64,000 nt of DNA from Thiomicrorhabdus sp. Kp2. Lineage in GTDB: Bacteria; Pseudomonadota; Gammaproteobacteria; Thiomicrospirales; Thiomicrospiraceae. Positions 8,990-42,470 of this stretch are shown here, piece after piece. Position numbers and translations under genes: made by a program. The stretch lies in contig NZ_ARWI01000001.1 of NCBI RefSeq assembly GCF_000478585.1, forward strand, positions 1,798,001 to 1,862,000. Reading direction: 5' to 3'. The notes below the pieces were generated by a model. The model made no database searches. It was not told the origin of the DNA and saw nothing but the letters and a program-made list of their open reading frames with translations. The stretch's first letter is position 1. The number at the start of each line of letters is the position of its first letter.

Positions 8990-9211
8990 TTCGATCTCCT
9001 CGGCTTGCAAATTTTTATTAAATCCCTTGCAACGAGGCTATCTTATTTAGGCGAAACTATATAAATCTATTCTATATAACGTAGCCCTGTGCTGGGAGTG
9101 AGTCTTTTTGGCTTTTTAGCATTCTTTTAATGTTCTTTAGTTATTGTTTTAAAAAGGCACGTAATTCAATCAGTGATAAGTCGATTGAAAAGTGAACGTT
9201 AATTGGTATAT

Positions 9212-20787: not shown

Positions 20788-22713
20788 ATGAAAGAGATGC
20801 GATTTTGGTTGTTGGCGTTACTTTTGATGTTTACCACAAATGCAAATGCAGTGATTCTTTCAAGCGATGAAGCGCCACATTTTATTAGTATAGAAAGCTA
20901 TCTCGCCCCATCGAAAGAGCTTTCACTTGCTGACGTTATCGAGATAAATGATTGGCAATCTCAGCCCAACCACTTTTCGTTTGGTTATTCTGGTGATACT
21001 CACTGGATTAAAATCGAACTTCAAAACATCTCTGATAAAACCCTTTCTCCTTTTCTTTGGATAACAGAGACCTTTCTGCATAAAGTGGTTTTTTATGAAA
21101 AAGTTAATAATCAGTGGCAATCCTTTACTAGAGGGTTGAATATTGATATTAATCATAAAGATGCATTAGATACCTATCCTCATTTTCAAGTACATTTAAA
21201 GCCGCAAGAAGCCAAAGTTATTTATGTTCAATTCAATGGTCAATTAGGTGTTTTTGGTGCTTTATTAGTGTCATCAGAAAAAGATTTTTATGATCAGGTT
21301 TTAAAAAAATCAATGATTTTTTCTTCATTGATTGTGGCACTTATTATGTTGTCCATTTTTTACCTGGTTTTACATGTGTACATTAAAGAGGCGAGTTTTA
21401 TTTATTACAGCCTCTATAGTCTAAGTTACTCCATTTGGGTGGCCTTGTATAACGGCTTAATTCCGATGTTTTTCAATGAGTGGGTTAATAATGCACTGTA
21501 TATATTTATGCCGATTGCATTTATTTTCTTAATCAAATTTTCACAATCTATCTTGGATACGCGTACACACAACTTACGTTGCCATATTTTTTTGAATGTA
21601 TTGATTGCTCTGTATGTCGTCGCCATCGCCTTTATCCCATTTGATGTGCAAACAGGGTTTGTATTGCATAATGTGGCGGTCACCATAACGATGGTTCTTC
21701 TCATTATTTTATCGCTTAAATCTTTAGCACGAAAGGAGCGATTAATTAACTTATATGTGGTGGGGTTGTTTGCCTACTTCTCTGGCATGATAGTTTTGTC
21801 TATGCTCGCTTTGGGGTGGTTGCCTTACAACGTCTTAACACGTAATGCTCCTTTTCCTGGTTCTATTATTGAGTTTGCTTTTTTTGCTTATATCCTGGCG
21901 CTTAAAGTTTTTCAAATACAAGATGAAAAAGAGATTTCCAATCAATGCTTGGTTGAGATGCAAGCTCAAACCAATCTTCGTTTAGAAAGACAGGTTTCAG
22001 AGCGAACGTCACAGTTAGAGAAAATGCTGAAAAAACAGAATGGTTTGGTTAAACAGTACGCCAGCTTTATCTCTTTTATTACCCATGAATTAAGAAATCC
22101 ATTGGGTATTATTAAAAGTCAGATTGCTTTATTAAGAAAAGAGTCGGAAAAAGGCATTAATAATTGTAGCAACCGTTTAAATACAATGAGCATGACAACC
22201 CAGCGTATGGAGATGTTATTTGATGATTGGTTGCTTTCGGATAAATTAGAAAATGATTTGTTCTCATTTGAAATTCAAACCTTTGAATTGTCTGATTGGA
22301 TGGGAACTCTAGAGGAGATGATTAAACAAACCTACAGTACGCACCAATTTTATTTTGAAAAACAGTCTGTTATGATTCATGCAGATTCTGTTTTACTCAA
22401 ACTGGCCTTTTATAACTTGATTGATAATGCGGTTAAATACTCCCCAGTAGGTTCGCTGATTAATATTAAGATTGTGGTAACAGAGAACAATATCTTTATC
22501 TATGTTGAAGATCATGGGGCGGGTGTCTCAGAAGAAGATGCGCAAAAAATCTTTGAGCGCTTTGTGCGAGGTAAAGGAGAAAGTCACATTCAAGGGACTG
22601 GTATAGGGCTATCACTCGTAAAGAACGTGATGGAGCTGCATGGCGGCGCTGCCTATATCGATCGTGAATACAAAAAAGGCAGCCGCTTTGTTTTACGCTT
22701 TAAGCGTGCCTAA
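20788..22713 (+). CDS. Sensor histidine kinase with 7TMR-DISM sensor region
   Basis: 641 residues. A signal peptide (about 1-22) precedes a periplasmic 7TMR-DISMED2-like beta domain (about 30-150; FSFGYSGDTHWIKIEL). About seven membrane helices follow (about 175-375), then a coiled linker (about 385-425). The HisKA box FITHELRNPLG puts the phospho-accepting His near 432. The HATPase domain (about 535-640) shows NLIDNAVKYS, VEDHGAGVS and GTGIGLSLV. The domain architecture suggests sensing of an extracellular carbohydrate or another small ligand. It is paired with the response regulator 46 nt downstream and may control the pilus and/or T2SS genes beside it. Confidence 0.92.
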   Translation: MKEMRFWLLALLLMFTTNANAVILSSDEAPHFISIESYLAPSKELSLADVIEINDWQSQPNHFSFGYSGDTHWIKIELQNISDKTLSPFLWITETFLHKVVFYEKVNNQWQSFTRGLNIDINHKDALDTYPHFQVHLKPQEAKVIYVQFNGQLGVFGALLVSSEKDFYDQVLKKSMIFSSLIVALIMLSIFYLVLHVYIKEASFIYYSLYSLSYSIWVALYNGLIPMFFNEWVNNALYIFMPIAFIFLIKFSQSILDTRTHNLRCHIFLNVLIALYVVAIAFIPFDVQTGFVLHNVAVTITMVLLIILSLKSLARKERLINLYVVGLFAYFSGMIVLSMLALGWLPYNVLTRNAPFPGSIIEFAFFAYILALKVFQIQDEKEISNQCLVEMQAQTNLRLERQVSERTSQLEKMLKKQNGLVKQYASFISFITHELRNPLGIIKSQIALLRKESEKGINNCSNRLNTMSMTTQRMEMLFDDWLLSDKLENDLFSFEIQTFELSDWMGTLEEMIKQTYSTHQFYFEKQSVMIHADSVLLKLAFYNLIDNAVKYSPVGSLINIKIVVTENNIFIYVEDHGAGVSEEDAQKIFERFVRGKGESHIQGTGIGLSLVKNVMELHGGAAYIDREYKKGSRFVLRFKRA

Positions 22714-22759: not shown

Positions 22760-23458
22760 ATGGAAGGTGTAACTGTATTAGTCATTGAAGATGAGATCGA
22801 TTTACGTGATGCCATTGTCTCCTTTTTAAATCTAGAAGACGCTTTTGCCGTGGGGGTGGGTAACCTCCAGGATGCCCAAAAGTGGTTAACTAAAAACTCA
22901 CCCGATGTGGTCGTTTTGGATTTAAACCTAGACGGTGATGATGGCATGGAGTGGTTGAGGAGCAACCCTTTTTCTGATGATGTATCGGTCATTATCGCTT
23001 CTGCAAGAGGTGAGGTCATTGATCGTGTTCAGGGCTTTAAGTTAGGAATTGATTCATATCTGATTAAGCCAATCGCCTTGGAAGAACTGGTGGCGATTAT
23101 TCTTAACCTTCAGCACAAAAAACAAACTCTACTACCTAGTATTGAGCAGGCGGAGTGGACTTTGAACACTCTTGATTGGAGCTTAAAAAATAAACACTTT
23201 TCAGAGCCAGTGAAGCTCACCAAGCTAGAAGAGATGGTGGTAAACCGTTTAGCGATTATGCCTGGGCAAGCGGTGAGTAAAAAAGAGCTGATTATTGCCT
23301 TGAATAAAAAAGAGGATTCTTACGATTTAAGAAGCCTAGAAGTTCTGATTAGACGTTTACGCCAAAAAATTGAACCTCTATCTGGAGACAGAACCAAGCC
23401 CATTAAAACGATTCATTCGATTGGTTATTCTTTTATAGAGCCAATTAAAATTATTTGA
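22760..23458 (+). CDS. OmpR-type response regulator
   Basis: 232 residues. The receiver domain (about 1-118) has the acidic pair E10/D11, phospho-acceptor Asp54 (VVLDLNLDG) and the LIKP lysine near 104. The winged-helix DNA-binding domain (about 135-230) ends with the typical IKTIHSIGYSF. AAGGAG lies about 15 nt upstream of the ATG, a long spacing. Cognate partner of the upstream kinase. OmpR/PhoB regulators bind direct repeats spaced about 10-11 bp; such an array lies 100 bp downstream of this gene, in front of the pilin operon. Confidence 0.93.
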   Translation: MEGVTVLVIEDEIDLRDAIVSFLNLEDAFAVGVGNLQDAQKWLTKNSPDVVVLDLNLDGDDGMEWLRSNPFSDDVSVIIASARGEVIDRVQGFKLGIDSYLIKPIALEELVAIILNLQHKKQTLLPSIEQAEWTLNTLDWSLKNKHFSEPVKLTKLEEMVVNRLAIMPGQAVSKKELIIALNKKEDSYDLRSLEVLIRRLRQKIEPLSGDRTKPIKTIHSIGYSFIEPIKII

Positions 23459-23557: not shown

Positions 23558-23594
23558 GTCGGTTTGTGTCGTAATTTGTCGTAACTCGTCGTTA
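23558..23594 (+). promoter_or_regulatory. Array of four 10-bp-periodic GTCG repeats
   Basis: GTCGGTT (23558), GTCGTAA (23568), GTCGTAA (23578) and GTCGTTA (23588) begin exactly 10 bp apart. This same-face-of-helix direct-repeat arrangement is what OmpR/PhoB-type regulators use. The array lies directly between a gene for such a regulator and the pilin operon. I infer that it is the operator for the two-component system. Confidence 0.6.
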
Positions 23595-23670
23595 GTACTG
23601 TTTTTCAATAGGGGCCATACTTGGAGCCAATAAACGGTTTTGTGTGGTGTTTTGTATTGGGTTTTTAATC

Positions 23671-23684
23671 TACCAGGCCTGGTG
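23671..23684. repeat. CCAGGCCTGG palindrome copy (pilin operon leader)
   Basis: TACCAGGCCTGGTG, an intergenic copy of the iterated palindrome. It lies about 107 bp upstream of the GTG start of the first pilin gene. Confidence 0.8.
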
Positions 23685-23790
23685 GTTAAAACCATTCTTA
23701 GCGATTCTACTTCAGTTATCAAACAACAAAGACCGTGATTTAAAGTTTATTCACATATGAATGAGTTTAGTTAACGATTGGGAGAGCATC

Positions 23791-24585
23791 GTGAAGCATC
23801 AAGCAAATAATAAATCGCAACGTGGTTTTACCTTAGTTGAGATGTCGATTGTATTAGTTATTATCGGTTTAATTTTAGGTGCAGTGTCTATTGGTAAAGA
23901 CCTGCAAAGAGATGCCGAATACAGCAAAATCAAACAAAAATTTGTGGATCAATGGGTGCAGTCCTACAACGCTTATTACAAGCGAGCGGGTGTAGTGGTG
24001 GGAGATAACCAATCCGAGCCAAGATTTATGGTAAATGGTGAAGATTATGCTGCGGGCGCTGGCGAACCTGTGTCTGGTGGAAATATGACGGCTGTCACGG
24101 AACCTAATGCAATTTGTCAGGGAAGTCTTGGGCCTAAAATGGATAGAGCCAATGCAGATGCTGATTTACATGCATTATTTGATCGCTTAGGTGTCAGAAT
24201 GCCGCCAGGTCGTGCTGAAGGTTTGGAAGATCGTTATGTCTATTTAGATACCAATGGAAACCCACAAGAAATTCAAGTGTGTTTTCAGTGGAACCGTCCA
24301 GGGCGCGCAGAAGGTGCTGGTAATGTCATGGTTATTACTGGGTTAACCCCTGACTTGGCAAGGACTTTAGACCAAATGATTGATGGTAAGCCAGATGCAA
24401 GAGAGGGTTTGTTTAGACAGCAAGGTGTTGCCAATGGTACGGCTGGTACGGCAGGTGTTGAGTGGGATGGTAATAACTCTCAAGATGAGCAGGTTAGTGA
24501 TAACGGTGATGCAACCAATACGGCTGACAACCAAGATGAAGACCAGGTTATCACCTTGGTTGCTATCTATAAAATGAATCAATAG
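23791..24585 (+). CDS. Type IV pilin-like protein, paralog 1
   Basis: 264 residues from GTG 23791, chosen for GGGAGAG 6 nt upstream and a 12-residue leader. The longer ATG at 23761 would give an unusual 22-residue leader. Mature N-terminus FTLVEMSIVLVIIGLILGAVSIG with Glu+5. The globular part shares a signature with the pilins at 24596 and 41754: a Cys followed by LHALFDR, then MPPGRAEG, ED, YLDxNGNP and VCFQ. The two conserved Cys probably form a disulfide. LTPDLARTLD and DGKPDAR follow, and the end is DEDQVITLVAIYKM. First gene of the MSHA-like locus. It may be a major pilin, but it is longer than most (about 150 residues is common). Confidence 0.88.
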   Translation: MKHQANNKSQRGFTLVEMSIVLVIIGLILGAVSIGKDLQRDAEYSKIKQKFVDQWVQSYNAYYKRAGVVVGDNQSEPRFMVNGEDYAAGAGEPVSGGNMTAVTEPNAICQGSLGPKMDRANADADLHALFDRLGVRMPPGRAEGLEDRYVYLDTNGNPQEIQVCFQWNRPGRAEGAGNVMVITGLTPDLARTLDQMIDGKPDAREGLFRQQGVANGTAGTAGVEWDGNNSQDEQVSDNGDATNTADNQDEDQVITLVAIYKMNQ

Positions 24586-24595
24586 GAGAACCATC

Positions 24596-25447
24596 ATGTC
24601 TATGCAAAAAAAAGCTAAATTAAAAGGGTTTACGCTTGTTGAAATGGCTATCGTTTTGGCCATTATAGGTGTGATTTTGGGCGCTGTTTCTATTGGTAAA
24701 GATTTACAGCGAGATGCTGAGAACCAGAAAATTTATCAAAAATTTTTAGCTGCATGGAAGACATCCTACGATCAGTACTATAACCGTATTGGCGTGGTTG
24801 TTGGAGATAGCCAAGTTGCACCAACTTACATGGTAAACGGTTTTGAAGCCAATATTGGTGGGGGTGCAAATGGAGGTGCTTCTGGCAATGTAACTGGTGC
24901 TGTAGCGGGTGTTGCTGAGAACTTTACTAATACGGGTTTAAAAATTTGCCATGGACAAGGTTATGCGGCTAATACAGTCTCTACTGGAGATGCAGGGTTG
25001 GCCACACAAGATTTGCATGCGTTATTTGACCGTGCAGGTTTGAAAATGCCGCCTGGTCGTGCAGAGGGACAAGAAGATCGTTACTTATATTTAGATGCTA
25101 ATGGTAACCCTGTTGAGTTGCAGGTTTGTTTTCAATGGAATCCAAATGGAACGAATAGCGGCGCGGGTAATGTGCTTGTGTTAAGAGGGCTTACGCCAGA
25201 TTTAGCACGTACTCTGGATAGTATGATTGATGGAAAGCCTGACGCAATTGAAGGTCGATTTCGCCAGCAAGATGCCGCTTTAAACACAGGAGGCGCGAAT
25301 ACAAGTCAGCAACCTGGTGTTGAATGGCGTGCAAACAGCACCTACAAGGTGGGCGAGGAAGCCACGGCAACAGCAGATGGCGAAGGCGATAATCAAGATG
25401 AAAACCGAGTAGTGTTATTAACCGCGCACTGGCAGATGGATCAGTAG
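24596..25447 (+). CDS. Type IV pilin-like protein, paralog 2
   Basis: 283 residues with AGGAG just upstream. Leader MSMQKKAKLKG, then FTLVEMAIVLAIIGVILGAVSIG. It keeps the whole signature of the preceding pilin (LHALFDR, MPPGRAEG, YLDANGNP, QVCFQWN, LTPDLARTLD, DGKPDA). A Gly/Ala-rich insertion lies near 85-110, and the tail is DENRVVLLTAHWQM. It lies 10 nt after paralog 1, so a tandem duplication is likely. Which copy forms the main fibre cannot be told. Confidence 0.88.
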   Translation: MSMQKKAKLKGFTLVEMAIVLAIIGVILGAVSIGKDLQRDAENQKIYQKFLAAWKTSYDQYYNRIGVVVGDSQVAPTYMVNGFEANIGGGANGGASGNVTGAVAGVAENFTNTGLKICHGQGYAANTVSTGDAGLATQDLHALFDRAGLKMPPGRAEGQEDRYLYLDANGNPVELQVCFQWNPNGTNSGAGNVLVLRGLTPDLARTLDSMIDGKPDAIEGRFRQQDAALNTGGANTSQQPGVEWRANSTYKVGEEATATADGEGDNQDENRVVLLTAHWQMDQ

Positions 25448-29391: not shown

Positions 29392-31149
29392 ATGGGTTAT
29401 AAGATGCGTACTAAAAATCATACTTATGTTCAAATCGTGTCACTTGCTATGAGTGGTGCATTATTGGCGGGGTGTTCAACGGCTCACGTCTCCCAAAACA
29501 ATATTGATAATATCAAGGAAGTCGATAATCAATCTCATGAATTGATGACGACGCGTATTAATCAAGAGTCCAAAAAGTTTATGGACGAAAGCCAAAGCCT
29601 TTATAAAAAAATTCAAAACATCCCCAAAGTAGAACCTGAAGTCGTTGCTGTAGAGCCTGAGTTCAACCCTTTAGATGCGGTGAAAATTAGTGTAAATGTC
29701 AACAATGGAGACGTACAGTCGGTATTGCATGCCATTTCTGATCAAGCAGGCATGAGCTTATTGATGGATCCTCAGTTGTCGGAGCTCAAGCGCAAAATCA
29801 GTATGCATCTAAAAAATGTACCAGCCAGCCTTGTCTTTAACCAGGTCATGGAGCTCTTAGACTTTGATGGTCAAGTGAAAGGTAATGTCTTGATTGTGAG
29901 ACCTTATCGTGAAAAAGTGTATGAGCTGAACTTCTTACAGACTTCTACCAGTATTGACTACAGCATGGGTGGAGATGTCTTTGGTGCTAATACCAACTCG
30001 AATGGAAGTGGCGGTAGTAGTGGTGGTAATAAACCAATGACAGGTTCTTTAGCATTTAAAGGGACTGGCGCAACCCAAAGCAATCCATATAGTCAGTTAA
30101 GTGAAACTTTAGAAGACATTTTAGGTAGAAAAAAAGCCAATGAACAAGAGAGTGTGATTCCTGGTGTAACCAACCAAGCTCCAAATATGATGGGGCGTCT
30201 TCCTATGCCAATCAAAGAAACCCCAAAAGGGTTTCAACCTGTTTATTCTCTCAATGAGATGACAGGCACTTTATATCTAAAGGCCAAACCGTCACAAGTG
30301 GAGGCGGTTGATCAACTCATTTCACAATATAAATCGGTATTGTCAAGACAGGTACTGATTGAAGCGCAATTGCTTGATGTCCGTCTAGGAGATGGTAATC
30401 AGTATGGAGTTGATTGGAATAAACTTGGCCAAGATATTGCCTATAACTATGGTGCAGGTTCAGTTGATTTAGGCGGTGTGACCGATACGTTAAGCGGAAC
30501 AGGAAATCAGATTCGCTCAATTACTATTCCTTCTAACTCTTATGGCGTAGATGGCGCTACCAACCTAAAACTGGTGCATTCAGCTAATACCTTCTCAGTA
30601 GCGATGCAAGCCTTACAGCAGTTTGGTAGCTTAAGAGTACTATCGAATCCAAGTATCCGCGCTAAAAATGCTCGTCCAGCCTTTATTAGTGTAGGACGTA
30701 ATTCTCAGTATATTTCTGAAAGTACCTCCACTGTAAATAACGTGGGCGGTTCTTTAACCACAACCAGTGATGTATCAACCAGCTCGGTGTTTGATGGCAT
30801 CATTTTAGGATTCGAACCCTTTATTGATTCTGATGGAAAAATCAGTCTAACCATTCACCCTATGCAGTCGAATGTGGATAAAGCAAGTATGGCATTAGTG
30901 GATGTAGGAAACGGTACCAAAATCACCTTACCCGTAATTGATTTTAAAGGCTTAACCACATCGCTTAGTCTTAAAGATGGCGACACGGTTATTTTAGGTG
31001 GCTTAATGGATGAAGTGGCAACAGATTCAGGTGAGGGGGTGCCAGGGTTGAATGAAATTCCTGGAATCGGCGCGCTATTTGGTGGTAACCGTCTGCATGA
31101 TAAGGAGACTAGAGAGTTGGTTATGGTTTTACGTGTAACGATTCTCTAG
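29392..31149 (+). CDS. MshL/PulD-type lipoprotein secretin
   Basis: 585 residues. The N-terminus has a lipobox, SGALLAGC, with the acylated Cys at about 28; ATG 29404 is an alternative start that shortens only the signal. An STN/N0 domain follows at about 98-165 (VNNGDVQSVLHAISDQAGMSLLMDP). A Gly/Ser/Asn linker is near 200-225. The secretin core (about 320-585) contains VLSNPSIRAKNARPAFISVG, DGDTVILGGLMDE and VPGLNEIPGIGALFG. The MSHA-type secretin MshL is also an N-terminally lipidated type. It forms the outer-membrane pore of the pilus locus and is distinct from gspD upstream. Confidence 0.9.
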   Translation: MGYKMRTKNHTYVQIVSLAMSGALLAGCSTAHVSQNNIDNIKEVDNQSHELMTTRINQESKKFMDESQSLYKKIQNIPKVEPEVVAVEPEFNPLDAVKISVNVNNGDVQSVLHAISDQAGMSLLMDPQLSELKRKISMHLKNVPASLVFNQVMELLDFDGQVKGNVLIVRPYREKVYELNFLQTSTSIDYSMGGDVFGANTNSNGSGGSSGGNKPMTGSLAFKGTGATQSNPYSQLSETLEDILGRKKANEQESVIPGVTNQAPNMMGRLPMPIKETPKGFQPVYSLNEMTGTLYLKAKPSQVEAVDQLISQYKSVLSRQVLIEAQLLDVRLGDGNQYGVDWNKLGQDIAYNYGAGSVDLGGVTDTLSGTGNQIRSITIPSNSYGVDGATNLKLVHSANTFSVAMQALQQFGSLRVLSNPSIRAKNARPAFISVGRNSQYISESTSTVNNVGGSLTTTSDVSTSSVFDGIILGFEPFIDSDGKISLTIHPMQSNVDKASMALVDVGNGTKITLPVIDFKGLTTSLSLKDGDTVILGGLMDEVATDSGEGVPGLNEIPGIGALFGGNRLHDKETRELVMVLRVTIL

Positions 31150-41753: not shown

Positions 41754-42470
41754 ATGAAACCTTATAAAAGTAGAAACGTTGCAAGCCAGGTAAAACAGTT
41801 AGGTTTTACATTGGTGGAGATGTCTGTGGTTCTGGTGGTGATTGGTCTGATTATTGGTGCCGTTTCGATTGGCTCAGATTTACAGCGTAATGCGGTTTAT
41901 CAGCAAATTAGTTCTAATTTTATGCAGTCTTGGAGCCAAGCTTACCAAAACTATTTCAATAAAACAGGGATTGTGATTGGCGATTCGGCAAGCGCACCGA
42001 CTTTAAAAGTGGATGGCGCTAATGCTACACCAGGTGAAATTTGTACCACAAACCTTCATGGGTTTATGGATGCGGCAGGTATTACTATGCCAGCAGGGCG
42101 TGCAGAAGGTCATGAAGATGCCTTTGTCTATTTAGATAGCAATGGCAATCCACAGGAGACCACGGTCTGTTTTCAAAATGTTGATTGGAGTTTACCAGGA
42201 GCGACATCAGGCTATGTGGTTAGAAAACGTAATGTAATGGTACTGAAATCACTGACACCTGATTTAGCGCGTTTTTTGGATTCACAGGTTGATGGTAAAG
42301 TGGATGCGAGGTTTGGATTGTTTAGGGAAGGTTCTTTAGCAAACAGTACCAGTTCGGCATCAACCAATTGGTCTATAGATAACCGAAGAGCTTACGGCGC
42401 AACAACAAATACCAATTTAGATGAATCACAAGTCGCGGTTGTAACGGCTTATTTTATGATGAATAACTAA
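41754..42470 (+). CDS. Type IV pilin-like protein, paralog 3
   Basis: 238 residues. Leader of 17 residues ending QLG, then FTLVEMSVVLVVIGLIIGAVSIG. It keeps the pilin signature of 23791 and 24596 in shorter form: IC, LHGFMD, MPAGRAEG, YLDSNGNP, TVCFQ, LTPDLARFLD, DGKVDAR and the end DESQVAVVTAYFMM. It is separated from its paralogs by about 16 kb, at the far end of the locus. It is the last gene of the cluster, followed by a 22-bp palindrome. Confidence 0.86.
   Translation: MKPYKSRNVASQVKQLGFTLVEMSVVLVVIGLIIGAVSIGSDLQRNAVYQQISSNFMQSWSQAYQNYFNKTGIVIGDSASAPTLKVDGANATPGEICTTNLHGFMDAAGITMPAGRAEGHEDAFVYLDSNGNPQETTVCFQNVDWSLPGATSGYVVRKRNVMVLKSLTPDLARFLDSQVDGKVDARFGLFREGSLANSTSSASTNWSIDNRRAYGATTNTNLDESQVAVVTAYFMMNN

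Follow-up and report, generated by a model that had tools for sequence, protein, structure and literature searches.

The window, by which we mean the whole 64,000-nucleotide stretch of Thiomicrorhabdus sp. Kp2 DNA that was analysed, contains a block of short direct repeats between a two-component system and a pilus locus. A histidine kinase gene lies directly upstream of the regulator gene, and the repeats sit between the stop codon of the latter (23458) and the start of the first pilin gene. The regulatory genes and the array are positioned as follows.

20788 to 22713, + strand: 7TMR-DISM sensor histidine kinase gene, 641 aa (Pfam 7TMR-DISM_7TM, 7.9e-25; 7TMR-DISMED2, 3.2e-14; HisKA; HATPase_c)
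22760 to 23458, + strand: OmpR/PhoB-family response regulator gene, 232 aa, product proposed to bind the repeats (Pfam Response_reg, 1.7e-19; Trans_reg_C, 1.5e-13)
23558 to 23567, 23568 to 23577, 23578 to 23587 and 23588 to 23597, + strand: proposed operator of four tandem decamers, consensus GTCGKWWTTN (direct reading; register shared by four species; sole such array in the window)

The repeat array

Direct reading of positions 23558 to 23597 gave GTCGGTTTGT GTCGTAATTT GTCGTAACTC GTCGTTAGTA, that is, four tandem decamers, and bore out the preliminary description of GTCG at 23558, 23568, 23578 and 23588 with an exact 10-bp step. Decamers 2 and 3 both carry GTCGTAA, and decamers 1 (GTCGGTT) and 4 (GTCGTTA) diverge more. 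All four half-sites have the same orientation, and the 10-bp spacing places them on one helix face; the block has the form of a tor-box-like array, a single promoter carrying four like-oriented boxes of 10 nt.

The chance expectation from base composition for four-copy GTCG arrays was ∼1e-6 per 64 kb and 5e-5 per 2.73-Mb genome. When any tetranucleotide with at least three different letters was counted in four copies at a spacing of 8 to 14, exactly one array was detected in the window, the GTCG array, and none in 30 second-order Markov sequences. A decamer weight matrix, which was partly derived from the scored block itself, gave this block 45 bits compared to a maximum of 15.9 across 20 simulated 64-kb sequences, and a scan of the 64-kb window with this matrix detected no array besides that at 23558 to 23597.

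Other targets had been put forward for the repeats. The suggested sites in front of gspD and of the copper operon gained no support: there was one array in the window and there were two strong sites genome-wide, both genes being covered by the window scan and the genome-wide model search rather than located separately. Repeat pairs also failed as a genome-wide signature, as two copies of GTCGKNW were no commoner than a reversed control, and pairs alone are uninformative. No array was present upstream of the kinase gene or of the type II secretion system (T2SS) pseudopilin gene gspG, and autoregulation and T2SS control were consequently rejected.

The pilus promoter and operon

The downstream region contains the following features.

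23592 to 23597, + strand: poor -35-like hexamer TTAGTA, contained in decamer 4 (first four letters TTAG in three species and TTGG in one)
23616 to 23621, + strand: candidate -10 hexamer CATACT, 28 bp past the last GTCG (ATACT invariant in all four species)
23670 to 23685, + strand: candidate leader hairpin CTACCAGGCCTGGTGG in the predicted 5' untranslated region (five pairs unbroken in four species)
23780 to 23793, + strand: GGGAGAG ribosome-binding region, conserved, with the GTG start codon (all four species share the unchanged block AACGATTGGGAGA ... TCGTG)
23791 to 24585, + strand: first pilin-like gene, at the head of the presumed target operon (N_methyl domain)
24596 to 25447, + strand: second pilin-like gene, same operon (N_methyl domain)
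29392 to 31149, + strand: MshL-type secretin gene (TIGR02519 pilus_MshL, 278 bits versus a cut-off of 250; Pfam Secretin)

The -35 position was occupied by TTAGTA, TTGGTA or TTAGAC among the species, and the distance from the last GTCG to the -10-like hexamer (CATACT or GATACT) was 28 bp in three species and 29 bp in one. No ordinary sigma-70 match was found across the array and the -10 hexamer. This combination of a weak -35 and no sigma-70 match is as expected of an activator-dependent promoter. The operator overlaps the -35 position, the -35 is weak and the distance to the predicted -10 is fixed, which is the geometry of a class II promoter, and the regulator would presumably substitute for a good -35. 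In the leader hairpin, two of the five pairs were changed on both sides, only four sequences being compared.

The start of the pilin gene in all four species is most likely the GTG at 23791 behind GGGAGAG and not the upstream ATG at 23761, because conservation across all of them is seen only in the region of the GTG. Orthologues of this gene (82 to 87%) were detected only in the four regulator-bearing genomes. The downstream locus appears to encode an MSHA-like pilus, the MshL-type secretin and the N_methyl pilins being the only markers among the msh genes on which this assignment draws. A further pilin-like gene, the third of this family, is located far downstream in the window (41754 to 42470); its relative in another genome of the genus (G007, L171 4916 to 5614) is on a short contig with a transposase-like gene and no pilus locus.

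The regulator and its orthologues

Both the receiver domain and the winged-helix Trans_reg_C domain of the regulator scored over the Pfam cut-offs, which places it in the OmpR/PhoB family. Direct repeats about one helical turn apart are the form expected for sites of this family, and such repeats were present and conserved here. TorR was the best NCBIfam model, but at 102.3 bits versus a cut-off of 275 the regulator was rejected as a TorR equivalogue and would at most work like TorR.

Orthologues of the regulator were detected in 3 of 31 other genomes of the genus, with identities of 79% (G015), 79% (G022) and 72% (G009); outside these and the Kp2 genome (G000), the next-best match in the genus genomes searched was ∼30%. 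The Asp of the VVLDLNL motif and the Lys of LIKPI or LVKPI were retained across the four orthologues. Wherever orthologous loci were examined, the order of kinase, regulator and pilus genes, with the T2SS genes before them, was kept.

Two further relatives were observed. G022 has a second copy of the regulator gene (L033 9263 to 9961; 62% identical) beside a gene for a 1,617-aa autotransporter. The aligned phospho-acceptor position of this paralogue is E and not D (VMEHNL versus VLDLNL), suggesting that it may act without phosphorylation, and no four-repeat array was found near the paralogue or the autotransporter gene. In a Comamonadaceae metagenome-assembled genome (L037 7923 to 10666), a regulator of 42% identity is encoded together with a 7TMR-DISM-like kinase, next to HlyD- and TolC-like export genes. 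This locus was set aside as an equivalent, having other neighbours, no pilus locus and its sole GTCG pair inside the kinase gene.

Conservation of the array and its joint occurrence with the regulator

It had been proposed that loss of the repeats from orthologous loci with the same regulator would speak against an operator. Arrays were present at orthologous positions in G000, G022, G015 and G009, so that all four loci with the regulator kept the decamers, the 10-bp register and the -10-like hexamer. In the alignment, the GTCG cores were kept (with one GACG, in G015) and the linkers varied, no bases were inserted or lost, and the last core was followed by TTAG or TTGG. The DNA upstream of the array was not conserved: 0 to 2 invariant columns per 20 were counted there versus 11 to 12 within the block.

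When 32 congeneric genomes were searched for four GTCG copies with at most one mismatch, the pilus array was recovered from each of the four genomes with the regulator. The other 28 genomes yielded two one-mismatch matches (G005 and G031) of unlike sequence, and the reversed control pattern gave three matches. The arrays of G005 and G031, and several one-mismatch arrays in G015, were set aside for their unlike linker sequence. Across the 32 genomes, the regulator and the repeats were present or absent together. A sequence-only model, R1, detected six strong sites, all of them in the four regulator-bearing genomes, and nothing else with E < 0.03. As R1 contains the sites from which it was built, their E-values are not independent, and the pattern searches are the unbiased evidence; the R1 search scored 150 candidates per genome and may miss weak sites.

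A GyrB tree grouped the four genomes carrying the regulator in a clade of six (support, 100/99) with G016 and G010, both of which lack the regulator and the array, and G016 was sister to G015 (98/95). The tree pattern requires three changes, at least two of which are forced by well-supported branches. The absence of both elements from the sister of G015 indicated that the regulator and the array changed together at least twice.

A second site upstream of a type 11 secretion operon

The unguided search for four GTCG copies revealed a second perfect four-copy array in the Kp2 genome (1592822 to 1592855), 110 bp upstream of a SlipAM-family gene. This array is flanked on one side by a DUF389 gene and on the other by the gene for the SlipAM-family outer-membrane protein, which points away from the array. 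When three cores were searched for with one mismatch allowed, an array was detected in G009 (9129 to 9152) upstream of the SlipAM orthologue (75% identical), which on further reading consisted of five to six decamers in the same orientation as that of G000. The other neighbour of the G009 array, a phosphoribulokinase-like gene, points the same way, and the SlipAM operon is thus the likely target. Both SlipAM arrays run opposite in orientation to the pilus array. Their -10 is poorly conserved, with TATAAT in G000 and no clear hexamer in G009.

The SlipAM gene product scored 26.2 bits with PF04575 (cut-off, 22) and slightly higher, 28.8, with DUF2860. The next gene is a candidate cargo gene in both G000 and G009. 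Structure prediction for the G000 cargo gave a low-confidence model (mean pLDDT, 40) whose best solved-structure matches were nearly all surface proteins of the type 11 cargo class, and no Pfam domain was found in the cargo homologue tested.

SlipAM-cargo operons are also present in four genomes without the regulator, G016, G001, G023 and G012, and no array was found at any of these. Their best three-decamer scores ranged from -2.9 to -4.4, compared to 33.3 in G000 and 27.5 in G009. The operon has the same position after gyrB in G016 as in G009. Two tandem cargo homologues follow SlipAM in G016 (L122 7772 to 10623) versus one in G000 and G009.

In G000, a two-core search added a further intergenic site, which precedes an unlinked cargo homologue. 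This site has three copies at 10- and then 11-bp spacing, and its score of 2.7 is within background (95th percentile, 2.9); its position upstream of a second cargo gene is no more than suggestive. A separate sequence, ACTGTACCTAAGTACAATAnTAAT, is shared by cargo-homologue promoters of G000 (L070, 567105 region) and G016 (L122, upstream of 9379). It contains the palindrome TGTAC-CTAA-GTACA at a -10-like TACAAT and could be bound by a second regulator.

Discussion

The neighbouring two-component regulator very probably docks at the repeats, because relatives keep the repeats only with the regulator and because the repeats also precede export-system genes in two species. The proposed link of the 7TMR-DISM kinase and OmpR-type regulator to pilus expression was likewise supported, and this support is of a comparative kind, from orthologous loci and joint occurrence. 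In the mechanism that we propose, the kinase would phosphorylate the regulator, which would then occupy the four half-sites head to tail, in the form of two cooperative dimers. With the fourth half-site over the -35, RNA polymerase would be recruited in the class II manner and the pilus operon switched on. The type 11 secretion (SlipAM/Slam) operon of G000 and G009, with its candidate cargo gene, would be a further target of this regulator, and in G000 the regulator may act on a second, unlinked cargo gene via the weaker three-copy site. The explanation as a whole, an operator of the adjacent OmpR/PhoB-family regulator that activates the pilus operon, is in our judgement likely. Weighing against it are the reversed orientation and poorly conserved -10 of the SlipAM arrays, the background-level score of the three-copy site and the lack of an array near the G022 paralogue.

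The array could instead be the operator of another clade-specific transcription factor encoded elsewhere, the adjacent regulator being a bystander that works at other sites. There is no site in front of the kinase-regulator pair and no sign of autoregulation, and the co-occurrence is confined to one six-species clade in which other clade-specific regulators could correlate equally well. At the pilus locus, moreover, these three elements (regulator, array and operon) are co-inherited and linkage alone could explain their joint occurrence; only the unlinked SlipAM sites break this. We nevertheless regard another factor as improbable, since the array adjoins this regulator in all four species, direct repeats at 10 to 11 bp are the hallmark of its own family and G016, the sister of G015, is without regulator and array together. 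The odds are far lower still for a repeat that binds no protein, whether a chance or mutational tandem repeat or a part of an RNA leader or small open reading frame. Slippage can create tandem repeats, and the array is intergenic; however, a 10-bp period cannot be coding, the array is upstream of the predicted -10 and probably untranscribed from that promoter, the cores were kept and the linkers changed between species whose regulators are 72 to 79% identical, unlinked copies recur at a functionally related operon and the simulations produced no such array.

The direction of control is a separate question. Activation rather than repression is what we infer from the geometry alone. The regulator could bind the array and repress the pilus operon, the fourth half-site blocking RNA polymerase at the -35; the array does overlap the -35 position of the predicted promoter, and many promoter-overlapping operators repress. 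This appears rather unlikely to us, given the weak -35 variants, the lack of an ordinary sigma-70 match and the position of the array, as upstream arrays that end at the -35, on the helix face of the polymerase, are typical of OmpR/PhoB-family activators.

The predicted activator operator has several known counterparts. The known OmpR/PhoB-family sites are all direct repeats, and arrays of three or four motifs are bound by PhoP of Mycobacterium tuberculosis cooperatively and more tightly than arrays of two (PMC4832192). PhoB at the pho box and M. tuberculosis PhoP bind direct repeats on one helix face as tandem head-to-tail subunits (PMC4832192), as is predicted here, although their motifs are 7 bp with 4-bp spacers (11-bp period) and the present array repeats every 10 bp with GTCG as its core. 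TorR, an OmpR-family regulator of torCAD in Escherichia coli and Salmonella, acts at four 10-nt tor boxes (CTGTTCATAT type) in one promoter (PMC9239176). The box here is GTCGKWWTT and all four are contiguous in exact 10-bp register; the sensor is a 7TMR-DISM kinase, and the target is a pilus, whereas that of TorR is a reductase.

The pilus locus resembles that of the Vibrio MSHA type IV pilus in its MshL-type secretin and a similar assembly operon; papers on the Vibrio pilus stress control by c-di-GMP. In the literature searched, a dedicated pilus operator of a 7TMR-DISM two-component system was not found. The second target resembles type 11 secretion systems, for which the SlipAM and cargo class has been described (PMC8406197, PMC12282271), in having a SlipAM-family (DUF560) protein and a neighbour whose rough model resembles solved β-barrel cargo. 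It differs in that the genome is environmental and the cargo homologue tested has no Pfam domain. A text search of PMC8406197 found no pilus or two-component control of type 11 secretion.

We read the array as a tor-box- or pho-box-like operator of ordinary mechanism that would govern a small unreported regulon, an MSHA-like pilus together with type 11 secretion. On balance, we somewhat favour the broader reading that the 7TMR-DISM system, via contiguous four-decamer operators, switches on the pilus, the type 11 secretion operon and exported surface proteins, and that a sister lineage lacking the regulator also lacks the operator at its retained secretion operon. A natural comparison of G015, G009 and G016 could show how an operator is lost once its regulator is gone. 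For a two-component system with a 7TMR-DISM sensor, the array supplies a defined DNA target open to testing. The mechanism is ordinary, and the content of the regulon is the interesting part: it predicts co-expression of the pilus and the type 11 secretion operon, a prediction that would help in assigning a function to environmental type 11 cargo, and, if true, these genes would form a compact surface-attachment regulon.
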